Source of the DNA: Jiangella gansuensis DSM 44835
Lineage (GTDB): Bacteria; Actinomycetota; Actinomycetes; Jiangellales; Jiangellaceae
Direction: 5' to 3'
DNA length: 64,000 nucleotides
Assembly (NCBI RefSeq): GCF_000515395.1
Contig: NZ_KI911782.1
Coordinates: 3,904,606-3,968,605 of the forward strand
Shown: one piece after another, positions 26,455 to 49,831 of the stretch
How the letters are laid out: each line of letters starts with the position of its first letter
How positions within the stretch are numbered: the first letter of the stretch is position 1
Program-made: the position numbers and the translations under genes
The notes under the pieces: model-generated
What the model was told of the DNA's origin: nothing
Seen by the model: only the letters and a program-made list of their open reading frames with translations
The model's database searches: none

Positions 26455-28113
26455 TCAGGGCACCGGCTGGCCGCTCATGATCCGTTCCCGGAGCGGCCAG
26501 TGCGACCAGTACGCACCCTTGTACCCCAGCTCGGTCAGGCGCAGCAGGAACGGGTTGTCGGCATAGTTGTTGTCCTCTGGCGTCAGGCCGGGTGCCGTCG
26601 GGAGCATCACCCGGTGCCGCTCGGCCGGCGGCACCCACTCCCAGAGCAGTTCCAGGCTCGTCAGCCAGCGATCGCCGGGCCGCTGGTGTGTCCGGCCCTC
26701 GGGCAGGTCGGGGGAGAAGTAGTAGACCGGACGCAGTTCGCCGTCCGGGCCGAACATGAACTGCCGCTCGTACTCGACCCGGCCGTCGCACAGTGCCAGC
26801 GGCTTGAGCAGGATCGGCCCGGTCGCGGTGTTCGACTGCACCCCAGGCACCGGGCGCTCGCCACCGCTGCGGGTGGCCAGGTCGCGGCCCAGCGGGGAGT
26901 ACGGGAACGCGCGGATGCCCAGCGTGTAGCCCACGACGGTGGCGTCCAGTGCGAGCAGCCCGTCGACGCAGGCCCGCATGGTTTCAGCCGTCTCACCGGG
27001 CATCCCGAGCAGTGCCTCCACCATGGTCAGCATTCCGTGCCGCCGGGCCAGCTGGCACAGGCGCCGCACGTCGTCGTAGGTGTAGAACCGGGTGCCCTTA
27101 CCGGTGATCTTCCAGCCGTCCAGGACCTCGTCGCGGACGTGGTCGGGCGCGACGTTGATGCCCGCGCAGCCGGCCTCCGCCAGCAACTCGGCGTACTCGT
27201 CGTCGAACGGAGCCGGCTGGACGTAGATCCACAGCCGCAGCCGGTGCAGCGGCGAGGACGTGTCGGCCCGCTTGCGGCGGACGATCTCGCGCAGCACCGC
27301 CTTGCTGTGTGCGATGTTGAGGTTGAACTCGCTGTCCGTGGTGTGCAGGTCGTGCACGCCCTGACCGGTCAGCGCCTCCATCTCGTCGACGACGGCGGCC
27401 TCCGCCCGGCGGGCGAACTGCCCGCCCTTCGCGTCCGGCTCGACACAGTGGGCGCAGGCGAACGTGCACCCGTTCTTGGTGAGGATGTTGCCCAGCCCGC
27501 CGCGGCGATAGTAGGCGAGGTTGTCCACCTTGCCGGGGGTGCCGGAGCGGCGCAGGTACGCCGTCGTGCGGTTCACCAGGGCAGCGCGGCCGATCGAGAT
27601 CTGCCGGCTCAGGTGCGGCACCTGGCGCACCGAACCGTCCTGGTCGCGGACGATGAGGCCCGGCACGTCGTCGGTCGCCTTGCCCTTCGCCAGAGCCATG
27701 GCCAACTCGACCAGGGTGACCTCACCGGGGCCCTTGACGCCGAAGTCGATACCGAAGTAGTCGACCAGTGCGAAGGGCATCGAGGAGAACCCCACGCCGC
27801 CGCCGACCACCGGCGCCGTCGTGCCCCGCCGGATCGCGCGGATGATCTCGCGGTGCGAGTCCAGGAAGACCCGCTGTTCCTGCGGATAGATCGTGTCGGT
27901 GTTGCGGATGGTGACACCGACGAGCAGCGGATCGCGCCGGGCGAAGTAGCGGGCGACGGCGGCGCGCCAGTGCTCCCGGTCCAGGGTGAGGTCCAGCACC
28001 TCGACCTCGAAGCCGGCGGCCTCCAGCGACGTGGTCAGGATGTCCAGCGCGTACGGGGTGATGGGCGGGTGGACGAGGTTGGGATTCACCAACGTGACGG
28101 TGTTGCTATGCAC
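26455..28113 (-). CDS. B12-binding radical SAM enzyme (class B-like)
   Basis: The 552-residue protein starts with a cobalamin-binding-like Rossmann domain (1-150, TLVNPNLVHPPITPYALDIL) and then a radical SAM barrel whose 4Fe-4S motif is C216-TFA-C220-AH-C223. The C-terminal 150 residues are unassigned. Class B members transfer methyl groups or rearrange unactivated carbons using methylcobalamin. The tryptophanase next door and the known class B tryptophan methylase TsrM make tryptophan or an indole a plausible substrate, which is inference only. AAAGGG precedes the ATG. It is divergent from a small XRE gene and shares a 168-bp promoter gap with it. Confidence 0.85.
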   Translation of the reverse strand: MHSNTVTLVNPNLVHPPITPYALDILTTSLEAAGFEVEVLDLTLDREHWRAAVARYFARRDPLLVGVTIRNTDTIYPQEQRVFLDSHREIIRAIRRGTTAPVVGGGVGFSSMPFALVDYFGIDFGVKGPGEVTLVELAMALAKGKATDDVPGLIVRDQDGSVRQVPHLSRQISIGRAALVNRTTAYLRRSGTPGKVDNLAYYRRGGLGNILTKNGCTFACAHCVEPDAKGGQFARRAEAAVVDEMEALTGQGVHDLHTTDSEFNLNIAHSKAVLREIVRRKRADTSSPLHRLRLWIYVQPAPFDDEYAELLAEAGCAGINVAPDHVRDEVLDGWKITGKGTRFYTYDDVRRLCQLARRHGMLTMVEALLGMPGETAETMRACVDGLLALDATVVGYTLGIRAFPYSPLGRDLATRSGGERPVPGVQSNTATGPILLKPLALCDGRVEYERQFMFGPDGELRPVYYFSPDLPEGRTHQRPGDRWLTSLELLWEWVPPAERHRVMLPTAPGLTPEDNNYADNPFLLRLTELGYKGAYWSHWPLRERIMSGQPVP

Positions 28114-28281
28114 CCTTTCAGGCTCGCAGCCGGCCGAGTCGCTGGGCAGGGGCCAAGATCGTCCGGATGTCCCGATGCGTTCGCAAAGTGGACAAGATCA
28201 TTCGCGGAGCGTCCTGGCCGCGGTGGGGCCTGGTCAGCAGGCTGTTGGCGGGAGGCCCGGCAGCGACGACGAGGTGGTGTG

Positions 28282-28578
28282 GTGAACGGTCAGGAGCCCG
28301 TCGGGGAGGTGATCCGGCGCGCCCGCGGCCGTCTCGGCTACAGCCAGTACGAGTTCGCCGGCGAGCTCGCCCGCGTGTCAGGGAACCCGTCGCTCACCCG
28401 GGAGGAAGTGGCCCGGTGGGAACGCGGCAAGAGGATTCCCGGGCCGTACTGGCGGCAGTGGCTGAGCCGGGTCCTGCACATACCGACGGGGGAATTGGTC
28501 GCAGCCGCCAGAGTGACCCGCCACGCCCGTGCCGACGGTCCGTCGCCGTTCACTCGACTGGTGAGAGCACCGCGCTGA
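28282..28578 (+). CDS. Small XRE-type helix-turn-helix protein
   Basis: The 98-residue protein is essentially one HTH: IRRARGRLGYSQYEFAGEL, then REEVARWERGKRIP and YWRQWLSRVL. The same pattern is found in the first 75 residues of the large regulator at 31900-33303 (RDRVARWERGRQIP, WRQWLSAVL), so the two share an ancestor. There is no effector domain. Start is a GTG at 28282 with GAGGTGG upstream. Its 3' end overlaps the convergent tryptophanase gene by 29 bases. It probably regulates the divergent radical SAM gene. Confidence 0.8.
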   Translation: MNGQEPVGEVIRRARGRLGYSQYEFAGELARVSGNPSLTREEVARWERGKRIPGPYWRQWLSRVLHIPTGELVAAARVTRHARADGPSPFTRLVRAPR

Positions 28579-29923
28579 AGTGCCGCAACGTGTCCGCCTG
28601 TTCGACGATCCGGTACCCGGGGATCTCGGCGGCTTTCGCCACGGCGGTGGCAGCGGTCTCGGCCACGTACTCGAGGTGGCTCTTCGTGTAGACCCGCCGC
28701 GGCAGGGCGAGACGAACCAGCTCGCGCGGGGCCGGCAGGTCCGGCCCACCGTCGGGGTCGGCCCGGCCGAATACCAGGGTGCCCAGTTCGGACACCCGCA
28801 CGGCTCCGGCCAGGTAGAGCGCGTTGGCCAGCGCGGTGGCCGGTAGCCGCTGGGGCGCCACGTGGGGGAGGAGCTGCGCTGCGTCGACGTACACCGCGTG
28901 ACACCCGGTCGGCTGCAGAACCGGCAGGCCGGCCTCCTGCAGGCGCTCGCCGAACCAGCGTGCGGTCTGGGCGCGGTAGCGCAGATACGCCGGGTCGGTC
29001 ACCTCCTGCAGGCCCTGAGCCAGCGCTTCGAGGTCCCGGCCGGCCAGGCCGCCGTACGTCGGGAACCCTTCGACCGCGATGAGCCGGTCCCGGCAGCGAC
29101 GCGCGAGGCCGGCGTCGCGCAGTGCGATCATCCCGCCGATGTTGCCGATGCCGTCCTTCTTGAGACTCGCCCAGCAGCCGTCCGCCAGCGAGAACGTCAG
29201 CTGGGCGACCTCGCGCGGGGTGTAGTGCGCGTGATCGGGGTCGCGTTCGGTGATCAGATAGGCGTTCTCGGCGAAGCGGGACGCGTCCAACAGCAGCGGC
29301 ACGTCGTAGGCGTTGCACAGTGCCCGGGTGCCCGCGATGTTGGCCATGGAGACCGGCTGGCCCCCGCCGGCGTTGTTGGTGATGGTCAGGACGACGCAGC
29401 GGACGGAGGCGCCGCCCTGACCGTCCAGGAGGGAGTGGAGGGCGTCGAGATCGATGTCGCCGCCGAACGGCGAGGGTTGCGAACCAAGACCCGCGCCGAC
29501 CGGAAGGTCGACGGCGTGACCACCGACGGCCTCGACACTGGCCCGGGTGGTGTCGAAGTGAGTGTTGGCGACAGAGACGTCGCCGGGCCGCAGCAGGGTC
29601 GCGAACAGGATGCGTTCGGCCGCCCGGCCCTGGTGCACGGGGATGATCTCGTCGTAACCGGTGAGATGCCGCACCACCGCTTCGAAGCGCTCGAACGACG
29701 TGGCGCCGGCGTAGGACTCGTCGCCGGAGAGCAACGCGGACCACTGCGCGGCGGACATCGCACTGGTGCCGGAGTCGGTCAACAGGTCGACGGTGATGGC
29801 CCGGGACGGCACCCGGAACAGGTTGTACCCGGCCTTCGTCAGCGCGGCGTCGCGCTGCTCCGGCGTGGGGAACGGGATCGGCTCGACGGCCTTGATCCTG
29901 AACGGCTCCATGAACACGGGCAC
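28550..29923 (-). CDS. tnaA: Tryptophanase (PLP-dependent beta-eliminating lyase)
   Basis: The 457-residue enzyme splits tryptophan to indole, pyruvate and ammonia. Family marks are PFRIKAVEPIPFPTPEQRDA, VDLLTDSGTSAMS, VPVHQGRAAER-like VHQGRAAE, DASRFAENAY and the PLP lysine K256 in SLKKDGIGNIGG. Tyrosine phenol-lyase is the close alternative: at the position where it has Thr in FTTTR this protein has D124 (HFDTTR), and where it has Arg in MERG this protein has Leu (SELG). Both choices match tryptophanase. Start is the GTG at 29923, preceded by AAGGGGA. No TnaC-like leader was seen. It sits in one locus with a B12 radical SAM enzyme and several regulators. Confidence 0.88.
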   Translation of the reverse strand: MPVFMEPFRIKAVEPIPFPTPEQRDAALTKAGYNLFRVPSRAITVDLLTDSGTSAMSAAQWSALLSGDESYAGATSFERFEAVVRHLTGYDEIIPVHQGRAAERILFATLLRPGDVSVANTHFDTTRASVEAVGGHAVDLPVGAGLGSQPSPFGGDIDLDALHSLLDGQGGASVRCVVLTITNNAGGGQPVSMANIAGTRALCNAYDVPLLLDASRFAENAYLITERDPDHAHYTPREVAQLTFSLADGCWASLKKDGIGNIGGMIALRDAGLARRCRDRLIAVEGFPTYGGLAGRDLEALAQGLQEVTDPAYLRYRAQTARWFGERLQEAGLPVLQPTGCHAVYVDAAQLLPHVAPQRLPATALANALYLAGAVRVSELGTLVFGRADPDGGPDLPAPRELVRLALPRRVYTKSHLEYVAETAATAVAKAAEIPGYRIVEQADTLRHFSAVLSPVE

Positions 29924-30211
29924 CGGCGCGTCCCCTTCCCGACGTGCGACTCGATGTCATCAAGTCTGTGGGCACAGCCCCGCCGCAGGTAGGGGCCAAT
30001 TTCGCCGCTCGGTGATCTTGTGACAACAGGGCCCGATCTGTGACGGCGACCAGCAGTGACGAGCGAACTGGTAAGCGCTAACATTTGGATGATCTTGCCC
30101 AGCATTGGGGCTGCGGGCGGGTGTGCGCCGTGGATGCACGCCTGTGGGCGCCACGAGGGTGCCGTGTCGCACGTCGATTCACCATCGGGCAAGTCTCCGC
30201 AGGGGGACGTG

Positions 30212-31192
30212 ATGACAGCACTGCCGCTGGAGCGCTACGAGCTGTTCCACTCCAAGGACCTCGACGACGCGAGGGAAACGGTCGGGCGGGTCTTCGTGCC
30301 GCATCGGCTCGACCTCGTGGGCGGATCCACGGGACTGGATGCACGAATGCACACGCGGCGAATCGCGAGGATCGCGGCCAACTACGTCGCGTACGGCGGC
30401 GAGGTCGTGATCGAACCCGGGGAGCTGGGCTCGTTCTTCGTCGTGCAGGTGCCGCTGTCCGGACAGAGCATGATCCGGTACGGCAATGAGTCGATCGTCT
30501 CCACACCGGACGTCGCGACGGTGGTGTCGCCCACTGTGCCGTTGAGCATGCGGTGGAGCGCGGACTGCGCGCAGCTGATCCTGCGGCTGGAGCGGCCGGC
30601 CGTCGAGGCGCATCTGCGCGACCTGATCGGCGCGCCGCTACCCGGCCCGGTCCGGTTCGAGCTGGGCATGAACGTCAGCACCGGCTACGGCCGCAGCTGG
30701 ACCGACGCGTTCCGGTTGCTGGTGGGTGAGCTCGACCGCACCGACGGCAGCATGATCAACAACCGGGTCGCCGCGGCCGAGTTCGAGGATGGCCTGATGA
30801 CAGGCCTGCTGCTGGCCCAGCCGCACAACTACTCCCATCTTCTCGAGGAAACCCAGCTTCTCCCGGCGCCCAACCGGGCTGTGACGATCGTGCGAGAGAT
30901 GATCGAGAATCATCCGGAGTGGGAACACACCGTCGCGAGCCTCGCACGAGAAGCAGGGGTGGGCGTGCGAGCGTTGCAGCTCGGGTTCCGGCAGCACTTC
31001 GGCACGACACCCATCACGTACCTGACCAGCGTGCGGATGCAACGCGCCCGCGAAGAACTGCGCGCCGCCCAGCGTGACACCACCACGGTCACCAAGGTCG
31101 TGGCCAGATGGGGTCTGGGTCATCCGGGCCGGTTCGCCGCGTCGTACAAGATGCTGTACGGCGAGCTGCCGTCGGAAACCCTCGCCCGGTGA
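30212..31192 (+). CDS. AraC-family regulator
   Basis: The 326-residue protein has an N-terminal cupin-like AraC-binding-like domain (1-200, with FHSKDLDDARETVGRVFVPH, typical of the NahR/XylS-like AraC group) and a C-terminal pair of helix-turn-helix motifs (about 235-322, SLAREAGVGVRALQLGF and RWGLGHPGRFAASYK). Members respond to aromatic or other small effectors. The ATG at 30212 follows AGGGGGA. It is divergent from tryptophanase across 288 bp and is followed by a shortened paralog, so tryptophanase is its most likely target. Confidence 0.88.
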   Translation: MTALPLERYELFHSKDLDDARETVGRVFVPHRLDLVGGSTGLDARMHTRRIARIAANYVAYGGEVVIEPGELGSFFVVQVPLSGQSMIRYGNESIVSTPDVATVVSPTVPLSMRWSADCAQLILRLERPAVEAHLRDLIGAPLPGPVRFELGMNVSTGYGRSWTDAFRLLVGELDRTDGSMINNRVAAAEFEDGLMTGLLLAQPHNYSHLLEETQLLPAPNRAVTIVREMIENHPEWEHTVASLAREAGVGVRALQLGFRQHFGTTPITYLTSVRMQRAREELRAAQRDTTTVTKVVARWGLGHPGRFAASYKMLYGELPSETLAR

Positions 31193-31209: not shown

Positions 31210-31863
31210 ATGCCGGTGCCGCTCGACCGCTTTCCGTTCCTGCACTCGTCGGATCTCGACGAGGTCCGTGCGGCGGTGTGGCGCCACATGGGGGAGCATC
31301 CGATCCAGCTTGACGATCCGTTCGACCAGGTGGATGCCAGGATCCACGGCCGCCTCATCGACCGGATCACGGTCAGCTACCTGTCCTTCGGTGCTCGCGT
31401 GCGCACGGAACCAGGCGAACTCGCCTTCTACCTGATCCAGCTGGTCGAGTCGGGTACCTATACGGTCCGGCTCGGCGAGGACGAACTCGTCGCCGGACCA
31501 GGCGAGGTCCTGGTGCTCTCCCCGAACCTGCGCATGACGACGCGATGGTCAGCCGACTGCGGCGTCACGGCGTATCAGCTGCGCGCACCGGACCTCGTCG
31601 GTCACCTGAGCCGGCTGCTCGTGCGGCCGGCAACCGAGCCGCTGCGCTTCGACCTGAGGATGCGTGTCGACGCCGGCCCGGGCCGTCAGCTGCACAGGGG
31701 AATACTGCGCCCCTTGGCTGCGCAGCTGAATCAGCCGCGCAGCAGGATCGACAACCCGGTCCGGGCCCAGCAGGTCGAGAACACGCTGATGACGGCGTTG
31801 TTGCGAGCTCAACCGAACACCTACTCGGACGTCCTCGCGCGCGAGCTCGGCTGGCCGAAGTAG
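31210..31863 (+). CDS. AraC-like sensor domain without DNA-binding part
   Basis: The 217-residue protein aligns by eye with the N-terminal two thirds of the upstream AraC regulator: both have FLHSSDLDEVR or FHSKDLDDAR, then LSPNLRMTTRWSADC or VSPTVPLSMRWSADC, and MTALLRAQPNTYSDVL or MTGLLLAQPHNYSHLL. It stops where the helix-turn-helix pair would start; I see no HTH in any downstream frame. The gene starts 17 bases after the regulator with GGGGGAGGGG before its ATG, so it appears to be expressed. It might titrate or modulate the full-length protein by mixed dimers, or simply be a decaying copy. Confidence 0.75.
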   Translation: MPVPLDRFPFLHSSDLDEVRAAVWRHMGEHPIQLDDPFDQVDARIHGRLIDRITVSYLSFGARVRTEPGELAFYLIQLVESGTYTVRLGEDELVAGPGEVLVLSPNLRMTTRWSADCGVTAYQLRAPDLVGHLSRLLVRPATEPLRFDLRMRVDAGPGRQLHRGILRPLAAQLNQPRSRIDNPVRAQQVENTLMTALLRAQPNTYSDVLARELGWPK

Positions 31864-31899: not shown

Positions 31900-33303
31900 T
31901 CAGGCGAACAGGTCGAGCTCGAGGGCGAGGTCCTTCGCCGTCTCCAGCAGCGCTTCGAGGGCGGGTATCGCCGCCTCGACGTCCTGGGTGGTGATCCGGT
32001 TGTCTCGCCCAGCCGGGAAGTTCAGCGCGAGTTGGCGCTGACGGAGCAACTCCACGTGGCCGAACTGAGCGCCGAACTGGGCGACGACACACTGGCTGGT
32101 GACGTCGGTGGTGCCGCCCGCCACCGGCCGTAGGCCCTGCGCCGCGAGGAGCCCCAACGCGATCATGTTCGCCGCATGACACACCAGGACGAACGCGGAT
32201 CCGGCCGACCGCGTCGCCACGTCCTCGGCCGCCGCGAGGTGGTTCGTCGCCACGTCGAAGTACGGGCGGGCGTCGGCCTCCGGTCCGCTGAAGAGCTCGA
32301 GCTGGCCGCTGGCGACCAGCCGCGAGACGACGTCGCCACCGGGCCGCCAGGATTCTCCGACCGGCGCTGTGGGCTCGTCGAACGGCGCGATCCGGACGAT
32401 CGGCGGGCCGTTTCGCTGCGGGGGCACGCGCCCCGTGCCCCCGGCGGCCCGCCTGCCCGCAGGCCTGTTCGCGGCCACCAGGGTGAACCGCACGGGACGA
32501 TGGAGGCGGTGCTGGGCCCGGGCCGCCGCGGCGTTCAGGGCGTCGAGATCGGGCGTGGCGTTCGGGCGTTGTGTGAGGCGCACCTGGATGGACTCGGGTT
32601 CCGGGCCGACGACTCCGGCGAACCGCTCGGCCCAGCAGCCGACCAGCGAGATGCGGCCGACGGCGGCCACCCGGCCGAACTCCTCGCCGATGATCTGCGG
32701 CACGCCGTAGGTGACGCGGATGAGCTCGGTCAGCGGGCCGAGACTCGCCTTGCCGCTGGCGGCGCGCATCAGCCGGATCGCGCCATCGTGGCGGGTGACC
32801 AGGATGCCCGCGTCCTCCAGCAGTTTGGCCTCCTTGGACACCGACGCAAGGGAGCCGCCCGCGTGATCGGCCAGCTCGGTCAGGCTGAACGCTCGGTGCG
32901 GATTGAGCAGGGTGGCGGCGAGGATGCCAGCCTGGACCCTGGAGCGGAAGACGGGGAGCAGAGCGGGTGTTCCCTGCTGCCGCCGGGTGGTCTGGCGTTG
33001 CGGACTCTGCGTGGTGACAACGGCGTGACCCAGCCGGTTCTGTTGCCGGGCGGCGACCGCGCCGGCGTCCAGGCGCTCCGGCGGCACCTGGAGCACAGCC
33101 GAGAGCCACTGTCTCCACTCACGACGGGGAATCTGGCGACCGCGCTCCCACCGAGCGACTCGATCGCGGCCCATCGTCGGCCTGCCGGACACGGCCGCGA
33201 GCCGGTCGGCGAGGGCGTACTGGCTCAGGTGGAGCTGCTGCCGGGCGGACCTGATGAGCTGGCCGATAGGCAGGTCGACATTCTCCTGAACTTCGTGATT
33301 CAT
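31900..33303 (-). CDS. XRE + winged helix + MNT-like + HEPN-like fusion regulator
   Basis: The 467-residue protein seems to hold four parts. Residues 14-72 are an XRE helix-turn-helix (RDRVARWERGRQIP). Residues 118-182 look like a winged helix (AFSLTELADHAGGSLASVSK, LLEDAGILVT). Residues 190-280 resemble a minimal nucleotidyltransferase fold, but the expected GSxARG...D.D residues are absent (GCWAERFAG, SIQVRLT), so it is probably inactive. Residues 345-462 look like a four-helix HEPN domain (YFDVATNHLAAAEDVA, FVLVCHAANMIALGLLAAQG, ELLRQRQLALNFP), without an obvious RxxxxH RNase motif. MNT-HEPN pairs are known toxin-antitoxin parts; here they may have become a sensor. Assignments of the last two domains are by pattern only. 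Confidence 0.6.
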   Translation of the reverse strand: MNHEVQENVDLPIGQLIRSARQQLHLSQYALADRLAAVSGRPTMGRDRVARWERGRQIPRREWRQWLSAVLQVPPERLDAGAVAARQQNRLGHAVVTTQSPQRQTTRRQQGTPALLPVFRSRVQAGILAATLLNPHRAFSLTELADHAGGSLASVSKEAKLLEDAGILVTRHDGAIRLMRAASGKASLGPLTELIRVTYGVPQIIGEEFGRVAAVGRISLVGCWAERFAGVVGPEPESIQVRLTQRPNATPDLDALNAAAARAQHRLHRPVRFTLVAANRPAGRRAAGGTGRVPPQRNGPPIVRIAPFDEPTAPVGESWRPGGDVVSRLVASGQLELFSGPEADARPYFDVATNHLAAAEDVATRSAGSAFVLVCHAANMIALGLLAAQGLRPVAGGTTDVTSQCVVAQFGAQFGHVELLRQRQLALNFPAGRDNRITTQDVEAAIPALEALLETAKDLALELDLFA

Positions 33304-33538
33304 TCTTCGCCACACCTCGTTTCGGTGCCGTCGCTCCGGGGATTCGCGACGGGTTGCCACCGGAGACGGTACGGCGGAATCAGTCCCGTGGCCGGTGCAT
33401 TTTGCGACGAGACTTGTCCACATCACGAATCTCGGGCCCACTGGCGGCAAGGACACCGGTCGACGAAGAATTCGCCCCCTGGTTTAAGCCCGCCGCGCCT
33501 CACCAGAGTGTTATGCGTGAAACGGTGCGGAGTGTGTG

Positions 33539-34600
33539 ATGGGTGAACAGAAGATACAGCTCGAAGACATGCTCGCCACTCTCGGATCGTCCGTCCGGGA
33601 GTGCCTCACGATGATCGACAAGTATGACGTGGCGACGGTCTTCGTCGTGGACGAATCAGGCCGGCTGGCGGGCGTCGTCGGCGAGCGAGAGATCAGAAAG
33701 GCGCTGGTGAGCGGCGCCGAGCTGGACGATCCGGTGGCCGCCTTCGTGGACCGGCCGGCCGCGACATCGACCGCCAGCGACGGACGCGCGGAGGTCCTGG
33801 ACGTGATGCGCGCCCTCGGGGTGGGCGAGGTCCCGATCGTCGACGGCGACGGGCGCGTCGTGGGCGTCCACCGCGACGACGAAATACTCGGTTCGAATTC
33901 ACTGGAAAATTGGGCCGTGGTCATGGCCGGCGGCCGCGGGACACGACTCGCGCCGCTGACCGACGACATTCCGAAGCCGATGCTGCCCGTGGCGGGCCGG
34001 CCCATTCTGGAGCGAATCGTGCTCCATCTGGTCGGGTCCGGGGTCCGGCGGCTCTTCCTGTCGGTGAATTACCTGGGAGACCTCATCGAATCGTACTTCG
34101 GCGACGGCGCGAAGTACGGCTGTGACATCGCGTACCTGCGTGAGGCTCGCGATCGTCCTCTCGGGACGGGCGGCGCGCTGGGGCTGCTGGGCGACACCGG
34201 GGAGACACCGGCAGCCCCGGTGCTCGTCATGAACGGTGACCTCGTCACCCACTTCCCGGTCGCGGAACTCCTGGCCGCCCACTCCGAGAGCGGCGCCGTC
34301 GCGACGATCGCGACGAGCACGTACGAGCACCAGGTGCCGTTCGGCGTCCTGGAGTCCCGATCCGGACGCCTCGCGCGCATCGTCGAGAAGCCCCGACCCT
34401 CGTGGCCCGTGAACGCCGGCATCTACGTCGTGTCGCCGACGCTGCTGGCCCGTGTACCGCGAGGCGAGATGTACCCGATCACCGCCCTGTTCGAGGATTG
34501 CCTCGCCCGCGGCGAGCCGATCGGCCTCTGGTCCCTGCCCGACGACTGGCAGGACATCGGCCGCCCCCACGAACTCGCTCAGGCGAGAGGTCACTTCTGA
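33539..34600 (+). CDS. CBS-domain sugar-phosphate nucleotidyltransferase
   Basis: The 353-residue protein joins a CBS pair (1-118, VRECLTMIDKYDVATVFVVD and VGEVPIVDGDGRVVGV) to a nucleotidyltransferase domain starting at VVMAGGRGTRLAPLTDDIPK (128-147), with VMNGDLVTHF as the metal site. It should make an NDP-hexose or NDP-amino-hexose from the sugar 1-phosphate. The CBS-plus-transferase layout is known from PtmE of legionaminic acid synthesis, which makes GDP-glucosamine. Amino-sugar genes of that type lie 20 kb away at 54565-59681, but no direct link is visible. GGAG lies upstream of the ATG; an in-frame GTG is one codon earlier. Confidence 0.85.
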   Translation: MGEQKIQLEDMLATLGSSVRECLTMIDKYDVATVFVVDESGRLAGVVGEREIRKALVSGAELDDPVAAFVDRPAATSTASDGRAEVLDVMRALGVGEVPIVDGDGRVVGVHRDDEILGSNSLENWAVVMAGGRGTRLAPLTDDIPKPMLPVAGRPILERIVLHLVGSGVRRLFLSVNYLGDLIESYFGDGAKYGCDIAYLREARDRPLGTGGALGLLGDTGETPAAPVLVMNGDLVTHFPVAELLAAHSESGAVATIATSTYEHQVPFGVLESRSGRLARIVEKPRPSWPVNAGIYVVSPTLLARVPRGEMYPITALFEDCLARGEPIGLWSLPDDWQDIGRPHELAQARGHF

Positions 34601-35039
34601 ATCCCGTCCCAGTCGGGGACTCGCGTGGCACAGGCCACGTCGCTTCTGCTGGCGAGGCGTGACGACGAATCTCTGACTGTCCGATCTCGTCCACCGGTAT
34701 ACGCGCGATCCACGAGGGGCCCGTTGCCGGGCCCGTCGGCGCTTGTTAGCGAGGCGCTCGCGGCCCGAACGGCCAAGTACACGCGTGGACGTACGTCGCC
34801 GCCTATGAGTAGTATCTGCAGTAAATCGGTGTCACTTGTCTTAAGGGCGGCCGGCCTCGGAAGGTGCTGAGCGACGTACAAAGTTCAGCTTGACGCCAAG
34901 CGACTCCGACGTTACATTTCGCGAAATAGCTCTTGAGGGCGCTCACGTTAAGCAACACTTTTGGTTGCGGAGAGTCAAGCCTTTCTGGGCCCGTCGATGC
35001 CGCGGTGTGCATCCCCGCTGAACCGGCCCTTCAAATTCA
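34601..35039. other. Intergenic region at the edge of the lower-GC segment
   Basis: No gene is supported in these 439 bases. GGGCCCG-TTGC-CGGGCCC (34717-34734) is a compact hairpin that may terminate the preceding gene. From about 34800 the base composition drops. Nearer the next gene the 12-bp palindrome ATTTCGCGAAAT occupies 34916-34927. Confidence 0.45.
34916..34927. promoter_or_regulatory. 12-bp palindrome upstream of peptide-type importer
   Basis: ATTTCGCGAAAT is a perfect palindrome 113 bp before the first permease gene. It could be an operator. No regulator gene is adjacent to support it. Confidence 0.3.
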
Positions 35040-36107
35040 TTGCGTGTCGAACCATTCGACAACGAAGATGCGGTGGATTCCGTGACTGTCCAAGTCCCAG
35101 GCTCGTCGCCGATAAGCGTGACATCCAGGACGCGAGAGCGCGGGCGTCGGCCCTTGGGTGGGTTCGTGCTGCAGCGGTTGCTGCTCGCGCCGGTCACCTT
35201 GGTCGGGGTAACACTCGCGGTCTTCATCATGGTGGACCTGTCGCCGAACGACCCGTCGTTCGCGCGACTTGGCATGTTCGCTTCCGCGGAGACGCGCGAG
35301 CAGTTTGCCGAAGAGCACGGGCTCGACGATCCGCTACTGATCCGCTACTGGCGGTTCCTCCTGGAAGTCGGCCGCCTGGACTTCGGCGAATCGGTCGTTC
35401 GCTCGGAGACGGTAGGCGAGCTGATCTCACGTGCGCTGCCGATCTCGATCCAGCTCATGCTGCTATCTGTTGCCATGGCTGCAGTGTTGGCACTCGTGCT
35501 AGGTGTCCTCGCTGCTTGGATGGAAGGACGCGCTACCGACCGTGTGATCAGTGGTCTCGTTGCCGGTATTCATGCCGCGCCCGACTTTTGGGTGGGGTTG
35601 CTCCTTATCCAGGTGTTCGCAGTCGGCCTCGACGTGCTGCCGTCGGGCGGCTTCACGCCGATCTCCTACGGGTTCGGGCCTTGGTTGTCCTCGGTGATCG
35701 GACCGGCGACTGTTCTCGCGCTGGGAACGATGGCAGTCCTGGCGAGGATCGTCAGGGCGTCGATGGCCGACGAACTGGCGAAGGACTACGTCGTTACTGC
35801 ACGCGGCGGCGGCGTGTCCTGGCCCGTCGTCCTCTTCCGTAATGTCCTGCGCAATGCGCTGATCACCCCGATCACCGTGCTTGGCGTCATTATCGGTTCT
35901 CTGATGTCGGGGGCCGTACTCGTAGAAACGATCTTCAATATCCCTGGAATGGGCAACCTGCTGATCACTGGAGTGAATCAGGGGGATCTGGGCGTCGTTC
36001 GCGGGGTGACCATCGTGGCCGCCGCTACCTTTGTCGTGACGAACCTGATCGTTGACTTGCTGTACCTGGGTCTGAGCCCTCAAAGCGCGGAGGCGAGCGA
36101 GTCATGA
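35040..36107 (+). CDS. Peptide/nickel-type ABC importer permease, DppB-like
   Basis: The 355-residue membrane subunit has about six helices and the DppB pattern: VDLSPNDPSF, then EEHGLDDPLLIRYWRFLLEV, and the ATPase-docking loop VVTARGGGVSWPVVLFRNVL. The start is uncertain: the TTG at 35040 adds a 45-residue tail before VLQRLLLAPVTLVGV, while a GTG at 35082 would shorten it; neither has a strong ribosome site. It overlaps the next permease by four bases. Despite the family name, such importers often carry oligosaccharides or glycosides, which suits the rhamnosidase downstream. Confidence 0.88.
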   Translation: MRVEPFDNEDAVDSVTVQVPGSSPISVTSRTRERGRRPLGGFVLQRLLLAPVTLVGVTLAVFIMVDLSPNDPSFARLGMFASAETREQFAEEHGLDDPLLIRYWRFLLEVGRLDFGESVVRSETVGELISRALPISIQLMLLSVAMAAVLALVLGVLAAWMEGRATDRVISGLVAGIHAAPDFWVGLLLIQVFAVGLDVLPSGGFTPISYGFGPWLSSVIGPATVLALGTMAVLARIVRASMADELAKDYVVTARGGGVSWPVVLFRNVLRNALITPITVLGVIIGSLMSGAVLVETIFNIPGMGNLLITGVNQGDLGVVRGVTIVAAATFVVTNLIVDLLYLGLSPQSAEASES

Positions 36108-36982
36108 CGGCGACCTGGTCTGATCGGCGGTCCGCGGCAAAGTCAACCGACGCCGAGGGCGAGGTCGGGGACGGGCGGTCGGCACAGAGGCGCAGATTGT
36201 GGCGCTGGCTGACCATCGCGGCCAGCCTGCTCGTCACTGTGTTGGTGATAGCGCCTGCGATGTCCGCGTCGCCTACCGCGATTGAGGTGGATGCGGCGCT
36301 CGCGCCACCAGGTCCGGATCATCTCTTCGGTACGGATCAACTCGGCCGCGACGTGTTTGCAAGAGTCGTCCACGGGGCGCGACTGAGCATGGCAGTGGCT
36401 GTGGCCTCGACTCTGATGGCACTGATCATGGCAAGTGTGCTCGGTGCGCTCGCAGCAACGGGGCGGCGCTGGGTCCAGGAGATCGTGATGCGGTTGGTGG
36501 ACATCGGACTTGCTTTCCCCGGCATCTTGCTACCGCTGGTGCTGGCTGCTGTACTCGGGCCCAGCCTCACAACGACCATCATCGCGCTCGGCATTTTGTT
36601 CACATTTCCCATGACGCGCGTCGTGCGCGGGGCCATTTTCGCGGAATACGGCAACGACTATGTTCTTGCCGCCCGGTTGCTCGGCACGCGACGCTTTCGA
36701 TTGGTTGGCTACCACGTCGGCCTCAATGCCGCCCTGCCAGTGCTCGTGTACGCCACCCTCATCATGGCTGGCGCGATCCTGGCCGAGGCGGGTCTGTCGT
36801 TCTTGGGTGCTGGCGTTCCGCCGCCGGCGCCCTCGTGGGGGAACATCATTCGGGATGGCTTCACCATCGTTCACGCCGGGGCGTGGTGGGTGTCCATCTT
36901 TCCTGGCCTGGCCATCTTATGCAGCGTACTTGCTCTAAATAGATCGGCAGAGGCGTTCGGGCGGAGTCTGCGGCGGCGTTGA
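36104..36982 (+). CDS. Peptide/nickel-type ABC importer permease, DppC-like
   Basis: The 292-residue partner permease shows the DppC marks PGPDHLFGTDQLGRDVFARV, AGLSFLGAGVPPPAPSWGN and the docking loop YVLAARLLGTRRFRLVGYHV. It has about five to six membrane helices after a charged N-terminus. The ATPases needed for this importer are not adjacent; candidates lie at 61349-63255. It overlaps the preceding gene as ATGA. Confidence 0.92.
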   Translation: MTATWSDRRSAAKSTDAEGEVGDGRSAQRRRLWRWLTIAASLLVTVLVIAPAMSASPTAIEVDAALAPPGPDHLFGTDQLGRDVFARVVHGARLSMAVAVASTLMALIMASVLGALAATGRRWVQEIVMRLVDIGLAFPGILLPLVLAAVLGPSLTTTIIALGILFTFPMTRVVRGAIFAEYGNDYVLAARLLGTRRFRLVGYHVGLNAALPVLVYATLIMAGAILAEAGLSFLGAGVPPPAPSWGNIIRDGFTIVHAGAWWVSIFPGLAILCSVLALNRSAEAFGRSLRRR

Positions 36983-37106
36983 GCGTCGGAGTTGCGATTT
37001 TCGTCGGTCTGGAACGTCTATCGCACGGCCTGGGGAGGGGTGTTCGGCGAACCTTTTGAGGCGATCTGATCGATTGCCGGAACGTCTGACCATCTTGGAG
37101 GTCGGC

Positions 37107-38735
37107 ATGAAAGACACACCTGAGGGCGCCGACGGCGCGGCTGGCACGTCGATCACTCCTCTCACGAGGCGCGCGGTTTTACGTGCAGCGGGCCTCGGAG
37201 CGGGCGTACTTACGCTCGGCACTGGTCTCCTATCCGCGTGCAGCGGTGATGACCGGAGCGCGAGCAGCACGCCGGGCACTGACGGGTCTCCTCCTCGCGG
37301 CGGCCGCTTCACGGCTGCGTTCCGCCGCGGATTCTCCAATCTCGAGACATCAACGATCCCCGGCGCGGCGGCCATTGCGATTTCCTGGTATTGGTCTGAG
37401 CGGCTGTACCGGCCGGATCCGCTCCCTCCAAGGAGCGAGCTGTTTCCGGAATTGGCGACCGCGATGCCGGAAGAATTGTCTCCAACTACATATCGCATTC
37501 CACTGAGGGCTGACGTCACGTTCCATGATGGCGCTCCCCTCACTGCAGAAGACGTTGTTTTCACGGTGGAGTGGGTTCGCGATCCGGCGAATGGTTCTTT
37601 GTGGGCGCCATTCCTCGACATTATAGAGAATATTGGTGCCATCAATGACACTGAACTAGAGGTGACATTGCAGGCGCCAACGACTCTCCTTGCGGCCCGC
37701 CTCGCGCTCTTCCCCATCAGGTCGAGAGCCGCCCAAGAACCGTTCGAGCTGGAGCCCATAGGGTCGGGGCCGTACCGAGTAGTGTCCGCTGCCTCAGACG
37801 AACGTGTCGTCCTCGAGCGGTTCGAGGGCTACGCGGGCTCCAGAGACATCGAATACGACGAACTCGAACTCGTTGTCGTGAGTGACGACAATGCGCGCAT
37901 CTCAGGTCTGCGTGCCGGACAGTTCAAGTTGGTCGAGGATGTTCCTCCGAGCGCATTCGAGCAACTCTCGGGCGCCGACGATGTCAAGGTAGAGGCAGTC
38001 GACGGATATGGCTGGACGACTGCAATATTCAACTGCGGACGGTCTCCGTTCGATAATGCGAACCTGCGACGAGCCGTGGCATACGCGATCGACCGAGATG
38101 CCATCAACCAGACCCGCTTTCTTGGCCTGGCGGCTCCGGCGTGGACCGGATTCGTCTCGCCCGACCATCCTGACTACACCGAGCCCGACGTTGTGTACAG
38201 GTTCGACCCGGCCCATGCTCGTGGCCTGATCGAGGACGCCGGGTTTGACGTTGACGCTGGCGTTCCCATCGACCTGCTGGTGTCCGGAGCGCCTGCTGAC
38301 GCGCCGATCATCGAGCAGAATCTGCGCGATGTCGGCTTCGCGCCGCGGATTATTCCGATCGACGACGCGTCAAGCCTCCAGACCAGCGGGGAATTCGATC
38401 TATCCATCACGGCAGGAATTACGGATACCTCCTTCTTCTCAACGGGCCTCGAATTCATGACAAGGTTCTCCTTTACGGGGTTTGTCGTCGATTCGCTCGC
38501 ACACTGGTCAGGTTCGGAGCGTGAGGAGGTGGAGCGTATTCTGAACGAATCCGTGGCCGCCGCTGACGAGGATGCGTACCGAGCCGCGCTGGCCGACGCA
38601 CTGAACATCATCCAGGATGAAGTCCCCATTCTCGCGATCATGAGGCCCAAGCAGATCACCGGATGGTCGAACACGCTTGAAGATTTCCGACCCGGCCCCA
38701 GTATTGGCGTCGTCGTCGACGGTGTGCGGGGCTGA
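37107..38735 (+). CDS. Peptide/nickel-type binding lipoprotein (family 5), Tat-type signal
   Basis: The 542-residue protein has twin arginines (R21-R22 in LTRRAVLRAAGL), a hydrophobic stretch and the lipobox LLSAC with Cys45. The mature part has the family 5 pattern: RLYRPDPLPPRSELFPELAT, YRIPLRADVTFHDGAPLTAEDV, FNCGRSPFDNANLRRAVAYA. It should capture a peptide or oligosaccharide for the permeases just upstream. GGAGG precedes the ATG at 37107. The product of 59698-61320 is a close paralog. GC content is clearly lower here than in most of the window. Confidence 0.9.
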   Translation: MKDTPEGADGAAGTSITPLTRRAVLRAAGLGAGVLTLGTGLLSACSGDDRSASSTPGTDGSPPRGGRFTAAFRRGFSNLETSTIPGAAAIAISWYWSERLYRPDPLPPRSELFPELATAMPEELSPTTYRIPLRADVTFHDGAPLTAEDVVFTVEWVRDPANGSLWAPFLDIIENIGAINDTELEVTLQAPTTLLAARLALFPIRSRAAQEPFELEPIGSGPYRVVSAASDERVVLERFEGYAGSRDIEYDELELVVVSDDNARISGLRAGQFKLVEDVPPSAFEQLSGADDVKVEAVDGYGWTTAIFNCGRSPFDNANLRRAVAYAIDRDAINQTRFLGLAAPAWTGFVSPDHPDYTEPDVVYRFDPAHARGLIEDAGFDVDAGVPIDLLVSGAPADAPIIEQNLRDVGFAPRIIPIDDASSLQTSGEFDLSITAGITDTSFFSTGLEFMTRFSFTGFVVDSLAHWSGSEREEVERILNESVAAADEDAYRAALADALNIIQDEVPILAIMRPKQITGWSNTLEDFRPGPSIGVVVDGVRG

Positions 38736-38768
38736 AACTTGGGCGGCTCGAGAAGTAGGCGGCAGCTC

Positions 38769-41456
38769 ATGGCTCGCCCGTGGGCGCTGCGTGTCGAACA
38801 CCTCGATGCGCCGCTGGGTTTGACGACGCCCGTCCCCCGGTTCTCCTGGCGGCTGCCGCCTGGTTGCCGCGACCAGCACGCCTACCAGTTGCAGGTGGGT
38901 GAGTGGGACAGCGGGCGGGTCGAATCGGACCAGTCGGTACTCGTCACGTACCGCGGGCGCAGCCTCGTGTCGCGGGAACGGTTGGATTGGCGAGTGAGGA
39001 CCTGGACCGACCAGGGCGCGAGTGAGTGGTCCGACCATGGATGGTTCGAGATGGGGCTGCTCGCACCAGAAGACTGGTCAGCACGCTGGATCGGACCGGT
39101 AGCTACGAACGAAGACGGCAGCCGTGGTCCAGGCCCCGCTCATGGTCTCCAGCGTGCCTTCACCGTGCCCGCATACGTGGCCCGCGCTCGCATTTACGCC
39201 ACCGCTCACGGTGTCTACGAGCTCTTTCTCAACGACAGGCGTGTCGGCGACATGGAACTGACGCCGGGCTTCACCAGCTACGGTTCGCGCTTGCAGGTGC
39301 AAACATTCGACGTGACCCGCCTGCTTGAACCGGGAACCAACGTTCTCCGCGCCATTGTCTCGGACGGCTGGTTCCGAGGACAGGTTGGCGGGTGCCGGAT
39401 GAGTCGGGTGTACGGGGATGACGTGGCACTTCTGGCTCAATTGGAAGCGCAATGGGTTGACGGTTCATCTGTATGTATCGGAACGGACGGGACATGGACT
39501 ACTACCGTGAGTCCGATCGTTGCTGCCGATCTCATGCAAGGTACGACCGTCGACCTTCGCTTGGCGGCACGCGCGGGACGTGCTGAGCTCAGAACTCCGA
39601 GGTCTGCGCCTGGGGTGCGCAGGGTCGCCGTCCACGAATATGACCTCCGGCGCTTGTGTGGATCGCCTGCTCCGCCGGTCCGGCGTGTGGATGAGCTCGC
39701 GCCGATCTCGGTCACCCGACATGAGAACGATCAATACGTCATCGACTTTGGTCGGAACATCAATGGTTGGATCAACCTCAGAGGCGCGGGCGACCGTGAG
39801 GCTGAGCTGACTCTCACCCATGGTGAGGCGCTCGATCAGCATGGCGACGTCACCCTCTCAAACATCGCCGCCGAGCCGACTGCACCGGCGTATATCCCCG
39901 ACTCCTCGAAGCTGACGGCGGAGTTCCAAGTTGACCGTGTCACGGTGCCGGCCGGTGCAGAAGCTCTGTCGTTCGAGCCTCGGCACACGGTGCACGGCTT
40001 CAGGTACGTACGACTTGAGGGTGCCTCCTATCCCGTGGAGCTTGAGGACGTCAGGGCGGTGGTCGTCCATACGGACCTCAGGCGGACTGGATGGTTCGCG
40101 TGTAGCGACGAGCGTTTGAACCGCCTGCACGACGCAGCTGTGTGGAGCTTTCGGGGAAACGCATGCGACATTCCCACCGACTGTCCGACTCGGGAGAGGC
40201 AGGGTTGGACCGGTGATTGGCAGATATTCGCGCCGACCGCGGCCTTTCTGTTCGACGTGGCCGGCTTCTCGGCAAAATGGCTTCACGACCTCGCCGCCGA
40301 ACAGAGCGCTGACGGCCTGGTATTCGACTGTGTGCCCAACACTCAGCCGAGCGAGCTCTACGAAAAGCTCGGAATCGCACATGGCTCCGCGGGATGGGGT
40401 GACGCCGCCGTGCTCGTGCCGTGGGAGATCTATCGGGCGTACGGCGATCGTGACCTGCTCGCCGAGCAATGGGAGTCGATGTGCGCATGGGTCGATCACG
40501 CCGCTCGCTCAGCGGCCTCGCGGCGGCACCCGGCGCGTGCCCGCCAGCGTCCCCTTCCGGCGAATCACGATCGATGGATCCTCGACACCGGCTTTCACTA
40601 CGGCGAGTGGCTCGAGCCCGGCGAGTGGGATCTGCGCGATATCGAGGACAACATGAAGGCGCTCGCCGCTGCGGATCACGGTGAGCTCGCCACGGCTTAC
40701 CTCCATCGCTCCTCACGGTTGCTCGCCGCGATCGGCCGAGTGCTAGGGCATGAGACAGCGGCGACACGGTACGAACGCATCGCCGATTGCACACGACGAG
40801 CCTGGCGATACGAGTTCATCCGCGACGACGGGCTGCTGGAATCGGACTCCCAGGCCGGCTATGTCAGGGCGCTCGCCTTCGGCCTGTCGCCTGCGAAGCA
40901 CCGTCAGCGGCACGCCAATCGCCTGGTGGAGCTGATTCGTGCGGCTGGGACGCATCTACAGACCGGATTCCTGAGTACGTCGCATCTGCTTCCCGTGCTG
41001 GCGCGGACAGGGCATATCGACGTCGCGTACCAACTGCTTCTCCAGGATACGGAGCCTTCGTGGCTTGCCATGATCGACCGTGGCGCAACGACGATCTGGG
41101 AAGCGTGGGACGGAATCGACGAAGAAGGGAGGCCCCGCCTGTCGCTGAATCACTACAGCAAAGGTGCGGTCGTCTCCTTCTTACACCAGGTGACTGCCGG
41201 GATTCAGCTCCTCGACGAGGCCCCTGCGTACAAGTACTTCCGGATCGCGCCGATGCCTGGAGGAGGTCTGAGCTGGGTTCGCGCGGTCCACGACTCGCCG
41301 TACGGGCTCGTGGAAGCATCGTGGCGACTGGAGGAGGGGCGATTCCACCTGGAGGTCGTCGTCCCGTCAGGCACGACGGCGGAAGTACGTCTGCCGGACG
41401 GACAACGTCACCAAGCGGGCGTAGGGCCGAACCATTACGTATGTCCAGCGCGTTGA
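38769..41456 (+). CDS. GH78 alpha-L-rhamnosidase
   Basis: The 895-residue enzyme has N-terminal beta-sandwich domains (1-330, with RIYATAHGVYELFLNDRRVG and PGFTSYGSRLQVQTFDVT), an (alpha/alpha)6 catalytic barrel (about 430-780) and a C-terminal beta domain. The probable general acid is E476 in CPTRERQGWTGDWQIF and the base E778 in TIWEAWDG, both in the usual GH78 settings. It removes rhamnose from flavonoid, saponin or polysaccharide glycosides. There is no signal peptide, so the substrate must be imported, consistent with the ABC genes upstream. The ATG at 38769 was preferred; an in-frame TTG at 38739 is possible. Confidence 0.92.
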   Translation: MARPWALRVEHLDAPLGLTTPVPRFSWRLPPGCRDQHAYQLQVGEWDSGRVESDQSVLVTYRGRSLVSRERLDWRVRTWTDQGASEWSDHGWFEMGLLAPEDWSARWIGPVATNEDGSRGPGPAHGLQRAFTVPAYVARARIYATAHGVYELFLNDRRVGDMELTPGFTSYGSRLQVQTFDVTRLLEPGTNVLRAIVSDGWFRGQVGGCRMSRVYGDDVALLAQLEAQWVDGSSVCIGTDGTWTTTVSPIVAADLMQGTTVDLRLAARAGRAELRTPRSAPGVRRVAVHEYDLRRLCGSPAPPVRRVDELAPISVTRHENDQYVIDFGRNINGWINLRGAGDREAELTLTHGEALDQHGDVTLSNIAAEPTAPAYIPDSSKLTAEFQVDRVTVPAGAEALSFEPRHTVHGFRYVRLEGASYPVELEDVRAVVVHTDLRRTGWFACSDERLNRLHDAAVWSFRGNACDIPTDCPTRERQGWTGDWQIFAPTAAFLFDVAGFSAKWLHDLAAEQSADGLVFDCVPNTQPSELYEKLGIAHGSAGWGDAAVLVPWEIYRAYGDRDLLAEQWESMCAWVDHAARSAASRRHPARARQRPLPANHDRWILDTGFHYGEWLEPGEWDLRDIEDNMKALAAADHGELATAYLHRSSRLLAAIGRVLGHETAATRYERIADCTRRAWRYEFIRDDGLLESDSQAGYVRALAFGLSPAKHRQRHANRLVELIRAAGTHLQTGFLSTSHLLPVLARTGHIDVAYQLLLQDTEPSWLAMIDRGATTIWEAWDGIDEEGRPRLSLNHYSKGAVVSFLHQVTAGIQLLDEAPAYKYFRIAPMPGGGLSWVRAVHDSPYGLVEASWRLEEGRFHLEVVVPSGTTAEVRLPDGQRHQAGVGPNHYVCPAR

Positions 41457-41502
41457 GCGGGTCGCGCAACTCTTGGTGCTGATCCCGTATTGAGGGAGAG
41501 CG

Positions 41503-43797: not shown

Positions 43798-44921
43798 CCG
43801 GGCTTGGCGGACTCGCGCACGCTGTCGACCAACGTGATCGACATCCGGCGCGCCTCGTCGCCGTTGTCGGCCCAGCGGGCGAGCTTGCTGGGTTTCGTCC
43901 AGGCATCATAGACACCACGCACCTTGCCGTAGGAGTTGTCCAGTACGACGTGCGGCAGGCCTGCGAGCAAGGCAAGAATGTGGCCGTGGAGGCGATTCGT
44001 GACTACGACGCTGCTCGATCGCAGGATCGTGAGACCACGTAGCAGGGCCGCTGTGGCAAGCGGCTCGAACGTCGAACCGAAAAGAGCGGCAAGTGGTGAG
44101 CGGAGTCGAGGGTGCCGCTGAAGTGTCAGACACAGCTTGCCGTTGATGCGCCTGACAGCCCGTTGCCTCGGTCGCCAGGATGGTTCGGCCTCGATAGGGC
44201 GGGTCCATTCGATCTCACGATGACTTAGTTGGCGCGGAGGTCCGCCGATGTCCACGTACTCCGCATCGCTGCCGAACCAGTGGAGCCACGTGATCGCGAT
44301 GTGCGGCAGCCGCTCCGACGGCCGAGTCTGGGGAGTGTCGTCGAGTCCGAATGCCATGTCGGGCGTCAGGCGCAAATCGGCGTCGAAGTTCTCTTGGGCA
44401 AACTGGTGACTCCTGCGGTCGCGAACCATCATGGTGAAACGGCCGTGCCGGTCGATGAGCCGCCGCGTGTGATCGGCTGCGATTTGATCGCGGAAGTTCA
44501 CACTCTGTGGCAACTGGATCACCGGGATGCCGGGCATCTCAGCGAGGATCTGTTCGCGTAGGTGCGGTCGCCCGTCAGGCCTTGTATACAGATCACCGAA
44601 ATCCCCGCCGCCGGTCAGTAAGACCGGGCCGTCGGGTACAGCGCGGCGGAGCGCGTCCATGGAGAACGTGTCTTGATCGTCGCATTGGTAGCCAACCTTG
44701 ACGCCGAGTCTCCGGAGGGAGGCGAGCGCGCCGAGCCAGATCGCCATATCGCCTGGGCTCCATAGCCGCCCAGGATAGAATTTGTTGAGGTTCGGGAAGT
44801 TGAGGAGAGCGACCTCTCGTGCTCCCTCAATGGCTTGTCCAATATGGCCATCGAGGCGATGGCGGAGGTCAGTTATGAGTTCCTGATCGGGATGAATTGG
44901 ACGGCCTGTTCCGAAGCCCAT
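43794..44921 (-). CDS. Polysaccharide pyruvyl transferase family protein
   Basis: The 375-residue protein has the marks of this family: VLLTGGGDFGDLY, IPVIQLPQSVNF, FTMMVRDRRSHQFA and VVTNRLHGHILALLAGLPHV followed by VLDNSYGKV. These enzymes place a pyruvate ketal on cell-wall or exopolysaccharide sugars, using phosphoenolpyruvate. It stands alone and is oriented against the sugar-use genes, so it may belong to the surface-glycan part of the region rather than the rhamnoside locus. No signal peptide is seen. Confidence 0.8.
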   Translation of the reverse strand: MGFGTGRPIHPDQELITDLRHRLDGHIGQAIEGAREVALLNFPNLNKFYPGRLWSPGDMAIWLGALASLRRLGVKVGYQCDDQDTFSMDALRRAVPDGPVLLTGGGDFGDLYTRPDGRPHLREQILAEMPGIPVIQLPQSVNFRDQIAADHTRRLIDRHGRFTMMVRDRRSHQFAQENFDADLRLTPDMAFGLDDTPQTRPSERLPHIAITWLHWFGSDAEYVDIGGPPRQLSHREIEWTRPIEAEPSWRPRQRAVRRINGKLCLTLQRHPRLRSPLAALFGSTFEPLATAALLRGLTILRSSSVVVTNRLHGHILALLAGLPHVVLDNSYGKVRGVYDAWTKPSKLARWADNGDEARRMSITLVDSVRESAKPG

Positions 44922-47213: not shown

Positions 47214-47253
47214 GCGGCGACTCCTCGTCCGTCTGAAACATCTGAGGACACGG

Positions 47254-47290
47254 TTTCAGTTAACGAAAATGCTGATTCAATTTACTGAAA
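47254..47290 (-). promoter_or_regulatory. Inverted TTTCAGT boxes before the isomerase operon
   Basis: TTTCAGTTAA (47254-47263) and TTTACTGAAA (47281-47290) are near-perfect inverted arms 17 bp apart, in an AT-rich island 40 bp upstream of the isomerase start. The layout suits a dimeric repressor of the LacI, ROK or GntR type; none is encoded beside it. Confidence 0.45.
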
Positions 47291-47395
47291 TCTAAGTCTG
47301 AGTCGCGGTGGTGTCAACGTGGTGGCGAACCGTTCTCTGTGCACGCGCGCCGGTGCCGCCCCGACAGGTAGGTGCGGAATGGTCGCCGGTGATCC

Positions 47396-49825: not shown

Positions 49826-49831
49826 ACGGTC

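Follow-up and report, generated by a model that had tools for sequence, protein, structure and literature searches.

An XRE-type protein with MNT- and HEPN-derived domains is conserved with TsrM and tryptophanase genes in Jiangellaceae

Introduction

In the type VII toxin-antitoxin system MntA/HepT (HEPN-MNT), an MNT enzyme adds nucleotides to a HEPN RNase toxin (PMC7641770, PMC11586414). A wHTH-nucleotidyltransferase and a HEPN protein also make up the PADLOC pair PDC-M05A/PDC-M05B, encoded by two adjacent genes with the MNT residues intact; PDC-M05 is so far a candidate family for defence or toxin-antitoxin activity, with no confirmed antiviral role (PMC12988326). In the survey of Anantharaman et al. 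(2013, PMC3710099), the SAV_6107 HEPN family is an actinobacterial branch listed as lacking Rx4-6H, in a table that gives no architecture. According to the same survey, MtlR is an inactive HEPN regulator, not considered a conventional DNA-binding factor, and GlnD/GlnE are domesticated NTase-HEPN fusions working as nucleotidyltransferases (PMC3710099). MtlR and GlnD/GlnE are thus precedents for the recruitment of HEPN or NTase-HEPN modules to regulation, but neither is an XRE transcription factor in which both modules are dead. As for the enzymes of the locus described below, a known counterpart is the thiostrepton TsrM, which belongs to a thiopeptide pathway (PMC4632189).

The protein analyzed in this work is encoded on the 5.59-Mb chromosome, available as a single contig, of Jiangella gansuensis; the window, that is, the whole stretch of DNA that was analyzed, is 64,000 nucleotides long. 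This protein is homologous to PDC-M05A/PDC-M05B over the wHTH-MNT part and, through unfused relatives, over the HEPN part, in the same order; in contrast to that pair, it is a single chain in which an XRE domain comes first and both sites have been lost. With MntA/HepT it shares the superfamilies and the MNT-HEPN pairing but, unlike them, it lacks the catalytic Asp pair and the Tyr of the HEPN motif. Its unfused HEPN relatives fit what is said of the SAV_6107 family, a likeness by description only, and a fusion to XRE-wHTH-MNT is undescribed there (PMC3710099). Lastly, the TsrM of the locus is a clear member of the same family as the thiostrepton enzyme but, unlike the latter, it adjoins a tryptophanase-family enzyme.

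Results

Domain architecture of the fusion protein

The open reading frame, its strand and its coordinates (Table 1) agree with an earlier sequence-only reading of this DNA, and the start codon is backed by the alignment of 17 orthologues.

Table 1. Features of the locus; positions are counted from the first nucleotide of the window
Feature	Position	Strand	Basis or remark
TsrM-type tryptophan 2-C-methyltransferase, B12/radical SAM	26455..28113	-	TIGR04428, 6wte
Putative tandem operator (same as that of the fusion gene), divergent TsrM/short-XRE promoter region	28179..28215	+	PWM 31.4 bits
Short stand-alone XRE protein, 98 aa	28282..28578	+	Paralogue of the fusion's XRE head
Tryptophanase/tyrosine phenol-lyase family enzyme	28550..29923	-	NF009709, 1ax4
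AraC-family regulator	30212..31192	+	Kept across locus comparisons
Second AraC-type sensor domain without HTH	31210..31863	+	Directly behind the full AraC gene
XRE-wHTH-pseudoMNT-pseudoHEPN fusion regulator	31900..33303	-	467 aa; ATG 33303, stop 31900
XRE helix-turn-helix domain, residues 10-95	33019..33276	-	HTH_31, P22 c2/HigA folds
Winged helix domain, residues 112-183	32755..32970	-	PDC-M05A match from residue 112; MarR/ArsR folds
Pseudo-MNT nucleotidyltransferase domain, residues 186-283	32455..32748	-	hhalign against alignment of unfused MNT
Site of the lost MNT DxD, here Q240-V-R242	32578..32586	-	Alignment with fusions and unfused relatives
Pseudo-HEPN domain, residues 320-467	31903..32346	-	hhalign against alignment of unfused HEPN; 2hsb fold
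Site of the lost HEPN RN..EY, residues 421-430, RQRQLALNFP	32014..32043	-	Alignment
Putative tandem operator in front of the fusion gene, two half-sites spaced by 21 bp	33394..33430	-	Footprint in 15 loci; PWM 49.9 bits
CBS-domain sugar nucleotidyltransferase	33536..34600	+	Divergent from the fusion in most loci

The architecture, with XRE, wHTH, pseudo-MNT and pseudo-HEPN domains in one chain, is well supported. The XRE head lies just under the Pfam cut-off for HTH_31 (residues 13-80, E 6.8e-6, 26.7 bits versus 27), and the best folds for residues 10-99 in VIA-align are XRE repressors (P22 c2, Z 10.5; P22 c2/HigA, Z 10-11); it is also about 50% identical to the short XRE protein of the same locus, which is itself above the HTH_3 cut-off. 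The winged helix gave weak Pfam matches to HTH_20/MarR_2 (residues 122-173) and MarR/ArsR folds in VIA-align (residues 110-194, Z about 10), and together with the MNT part (residues 112-279) it matches PADLOC PDC-M05A with an E of 1.4e-26.

The fusion C-terminus alone has no Pfam match, and a single-sequence PDB search with the fusion yielded nothing useful. Profile-profile comparison (hhalign) connects the two C-terminal modules with the unfused MNT genes (99.5%, E 4e-23) and the unfused HEPN proteins (99.8%, E 7e-30), whose genes are MNT-HEPN pairs in the same order. This is in agreement with the idea, advanced in the sequence-only reading, of an MNT/HEPN pair built into a regulator; a plain XRE regulator with an unrelated C-terminus is ruled out by the profile and fold matches.

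The full-length AlphaFold2 model, obtained from a 17-sequence input, consists of an XRE bundle, a winged helix, an alpha/beta core (residues 188-276) and a helical bundle (residues 346-460); the relative placement of the domains cannot be trusted, because the mean pLDDT is 71 and the pTM 0.40. The fold search that had been proposed gave a clear answer for the C-terminus and a less clear one for the MNT segment. Indeed, the top folds for residues 340-462 are HEPN proteins (2hsb, Z 13.1, rmsd 2.5 over 116 residues; 1wol, Z 11.6; sacsin HEPN 3o10, Z 11.4), a result recovered only through VIA-align, since Foldseek with the full model returned chiefly winged-helix rows (E about 0.01). The MNT segment modelled by itself (residues 184-283; pLDDT 82, pTM 0.73) had the MNT antitoxins 8xeo, 8xeh and 6m6u among its best Foldseek rows (TM 0.54), with Z values tied with those of unrelated small alpha/beta folds. 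The predicted MNT assignment is carried by sequence and not by fold.

Distribution, phylogeny and selection

Among 99 relatives and 393 Actinomycetes genomes two forms were found, the long fusion and an unfused pair of adjacent genes, present in many Actinomycetes and arranged, as in the fusion, with wHTH-MNT followed by HEPN. The fusions are a single open frame in all cases. They occur in 17 of the 393 genomes, all belonging to the family of J. gansuensis itself (Jiangellaceae), and a scan of named genomes added fusions in Haloechinothrix and in Actinophytocola-like MAGs (Pseudonocardiaceae). The unfused MNT relatives match PDC-M05A at 1e-46, and the unfused HEPN relatives match PDC-M05B and are, at best, above the Pfam HEPN cut-off (one of them with 29.1 bits versus 22 for PF05168). 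In addition, a fragment with about 60% identity to the HEPN domain of the fusion, probably a broken duplicate, lies about 10 kb from the intact fusion of Jiangella asiatica (G005, L032:5613-5965).

In the tree of each domain (MNT and HEPN), the fusions that were sampled group together as one clade (100/100) with a long stem, from which we infer a single fusion event, with rapid change first and constraint afterwards. Between close orthologues, dN/dS is 0.02-0.17 for the XRE domain, 0.00-0.03 for the winged helix, 0.08-0.21 for the pseudo-MNT and 0.11-0.23 for the pseudo-HEPN domain, and 0.2-0.8 for the longer linker. The mean identity among orthologues is 77% for the XRE domain and 84% for the winged helix, the most conserved part. 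Since purifying selection acts on all the domains and the fusions form one clade, the fusion is not decaying; a chance or decaying open reading frame is ruled out by the orthologues and by dN/dS.

Loss of the catalytic motifs

The sequence-only reading held that the active residues of both modules are missing and suggested a survey of homologues for intact ones. Such a survey revealed that the catalytic G[SA][WF]..DxD of MNT is intact in all the 25 unfused relatives aligned and that DxD is absent in 22 of 22 distinct fusions, where it is replaced by [QHL]xR with an invariant Arg242 and where the G-S motif has become [GS]-[TCS]. The closest homologues are, moreover, not plain XRE regulators.

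In the case of HEPN the claim holds in a modified form. The unfused relatives keep R, R, E and Y (R..RN..EYP), with R106, E110 and Y111 invariant in 14 aligned proteins, and the RN..EY motif is gone in 22 of 22 fusions, E and Y being lost together; RQRQLALNFP or variants of it stand at this position. However, the canonical Rx4-6H was already missing in the unfused relatives, where RN..EY takes its place; since the SAV_6107 branch is likewise without Rx4-6H (PMC3710099), a loss of RNase residues is to be read here as the loss of the family motif. The fusions have, in turn, gained an RDN motif (R433-D434-N435, with Asn changed to Ser in one of them) C-terminal to the lost one. No intermediate, that is, no fusion with intact residues, was found among the 393 Actinomycetes genomes and 297 genomes of another family; four high-scoring candidates (L127-L130) turned out to be ordinary two-gene pairs with intact MNT motifs.

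Organization and conservation of the locus

The radical SAM protein that the sequence-only reading had placed next to the fusion, together with a tryptophanase, is a tryptophan 2-C-methyltransferase (TIGR04428, 961 bits versus a cut-off of 500; solved TsrM 6wte, E 1.4e-222), and the tryptophanase is likewise identified by its matches (NF009709, 574 bits versus a cut-off of 285; tryptophanase 1ax4, E 2.9e-115). The link with these genes is stronger than first noted, because of the conserved synteny and of an operator common to the fusion and TsrM (see below). In Jiangella and most Phytoactinopolyspora the gene order is TsrM (-), short XRE (+), tryptophanase (-), AraC (+) and fusion (-), often followed by the CBS-domain nucleotidyltransferase (+); some Pseudonocardiaceae harbor the same genes in a rearranged order.

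Within the 393 Actinomycetes genomes, the fusion is present in 17, TsrM over the cut-off in 15 and both in 15, counts that are not independent because the Jiangellaceae genomes are related. The two genomes with a fusion and no TsrM (G017, which retains a tryptophanase remnant, and G019) imply that TsrM may not be the only use of the fusion. One Jiangella genome (G002) has a 3' TsrM remnant, with none of the other locus genes near it. In Phytoactinopolyspora limicola (L041, L053) the fusion, the short XRE and the AraC genes are kept, with a tryptophanase remnant and no TsrM; hence the regulators have outlived the enzymes.

Some further features of the region are worth reporting. The AraC-type sensor without HTH, possibly a stand-alone ligand binder or an antagonist, is kept in several Jiangella and absent from that place in the loci of Phytoactinopolyspora and Pseudonocardiaceae. 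A small cold-shock-type gene and a LigD-like gene lie behind TsrM in J. gansuensis and in most Jiangella loci (L033, L034, L042, L043, L047, L060). Just past the CBS-domain gene, at positions 34001-50000 of the window, the GC content falls from about 70% to 62-67% in a stretch with ABC-transporter-like genes and a rhamnosidase-like gene, which is possibly an acquired island.

A putative tandem operator at two promoters

The alignment of the fusion promoters revealed a tandem motif, TTCGCaaaGTGGACA-N6-GTCGCgaAgTGCACC, with a period of 21 bp. A PWM was trained on twelve sites taken from fusion promoters only, some of which (L045, L034, L060) were misplaced in register, so that the matrix was blurred rather than sharpened. 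In most loci its next-best match is the TsrM/short-XRE intergenic region; the scores of both sites in J. gansuensis (Table 1) may be compared with a maximum of 21.6 bits over both strands of 3 Mb of simulated sequence. In the whole genome there is just one TTCGCAAAGTGGACA half-site, that of the TsrM/short-XRE operator. A third PWM match (47253-47289, 22.8 bits) was set aside as an AT-rich, palindrome-like sequence of another type; the palindrome-like element in question, TTTCAGTTAACGAAAATGCTGATTCAATTTACTGAAA (window 47250-47292), resembles the operator of another regulator.

With a simple operator pattern, nine Jiangella genomes showed a single site at either place and two more showed one site, with no match elsewhere in the Jiangella genomes and none in a genome without the locus. 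In Phytoactinopolyspora endophytica (G020) the two loci lie 30 kb from each other; both have their own site, and the pattern has no other match. Related tandem sites were recognized at both places in Pseudonocardiaceae by inspection of the alignment. In the genome lacking both TsrM and the short XRE gene (G019), the fusion's own operator alone remains, which points to the fusion as the binder.

A -10-like TANNNT, without an obvious -35, is conserved downstream of the fusion's operator, an arrangement that might suit an activator, even though this indication is weak; a standard sigma-70 scan found no promoter. The tryptophanase promoter has a different conserved motif (29924-30211), the direct repeat TGTCACA, which in this tryptophanase/AraC promoter region is probably an AraC site. 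Furthermore, a GGCCCC(C/T)NCC element is common to the tryptophanase and TsrM promoters (29924-30211 and 28114-28281).

Discussion

In the reading that we consider likely, the fusion is an XRE factor that regulates its own gene and TsrM, and the domesticated MNT/HEPN pair provides its dimerisation or sensing. According to this model, a PDC-M05-type two-gene MNT/HEPN module would have been fused once behind an XRE domain, both catalytic sites being lost afterwards. The XRE head, probably together with the conserved winged helix, would bind the half-sites, whose spacing of 21 bp (two helical turns) would place them on one face of the DNA. The operator upstream of the fusion's own gene would provide autoregulation, and the one at the short XRE/TsrM promoter would allow the fusion to set the expression of the tryptophan-methylation/tryptophanase pathway. 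The pseudo-MNT and pseudo-HEPN domains, the relatives of which pair with one another as antitoxin and toxin, might form an internal dimerisation or ligand-sensing unit, and the short XRE protein, whose head is similar but which has no sensor part, would probably compete at the same sites or act as a partner of the fusion. Control through the putative operator is strongly suggested by the promoter sequences; the protein that sits on it, the sensor role, the sign of the regulation and the pathway product are inferred. Judging from the enzyme families, the product of TsrM and tryptophanase is probably 2-methylindole.

It might be supposed that the short XRE protein is the one that binds the TsrM operator, the fusion acting as an antagonist or co-regulator, via its winged helix or a mixed dimer, and not controlling TsrM itself. 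In favor of this idea, the two HTH domains are similar (about 50% identity), and the short XRE gene is read from the region that holds the TsrM operator; in Pseudonocardiaceae it lies just 5' of TsrM on the same strand and behind the operator. The idea nevertheless seems unlikely to us, given that one genome lacking a short XRE gene still has the operator of the fusion and that nearly every locus carries the operator in front of the fusion itself. Even less room is left for the CBS-domain sugar nucleotidyltransferase as the main partner, with the TsrM link as a positional accident. The operator is kept in some loci (L044, L049) whose fusion has no intact CBS gene next to it, and it recurs at TsrM even with a distance of 30 kb between the loci. 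This makes such a partnership very improbable, even though 14 of the 22 compared loci, Pseudonocardiaceae included, have the CBS gene in divergent orientation to the fusion, with the fusion's operator located between the two genes.

The significant PDC-M05A match and the purifying selection acting on the MNT and HEPN parts would also be expected of a single-chain toxin-antitoxin or antiphage protein still working with an altered catalysis. However, the replacement of DxD by [QHL]xR and the loss of RN..EY in 22 of 22 fusions, the chromosomal position of the gene at a metabolic locus conserved across species, and the operators common to the fusion and TsrM render this hypothesis hardly credible. 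The view of the fusion as a sensor made from defence parts, expressed in the sequence-only reading, is in agreement with the homology to the PDC-M05 candidate defence or toxin-antitoxin family, but it has to be softened in this respect, the antiviral role of PDC-M05 being unconfirmed (PMC12988326).

One can speculate, rather tentatively, that a toxin-antitoxin pair was taken over whole to become the signal-sensing half of a transcription factor, and that the interface between pseudo-MNT and pseudo-HEPN might bind a small molecule (a nucleotide, tryptophan or methylindole), thereby switching a two-operator methylated-indole regulon.

Conclusions

Inactive HEPN regulators and domesticated NTase-HEPN fusions were already known (PMC3710099); in the open literature searched we found no description of an XRE-MNT-HEPN fusion, of an XRE factor derived from a whole dead MNT/HEPN pair, or of TsrM with tryptophanase. 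What is newly found here is the conservation of the fusion with TsrM and tryptophanase in Jiangellaceae and some Pseudonocardiaceae, plus a common operator. One clade, the loss of both active sites, two operator sites per genome and the availability, for comparison, of unfused relatives in related bacteria offer a testable route to what MNT/HEPN interfaces sense once catalysis is gone. The finding is also a warning, in that a regulator of this sort can be annotated as an antiphage protein by tools for defence-system detection, as the PADLOC label PDC-M05A exemplifies. The common operator, in turn, gives a handle on the control of the TsrM/tryptophanase pathway. On the whole, this locus is a clear example of how toxin-antitoxin parts can be domesticated to yield a metabolic regulator, in that parts of a defence type appear to have been turned to metabolism.
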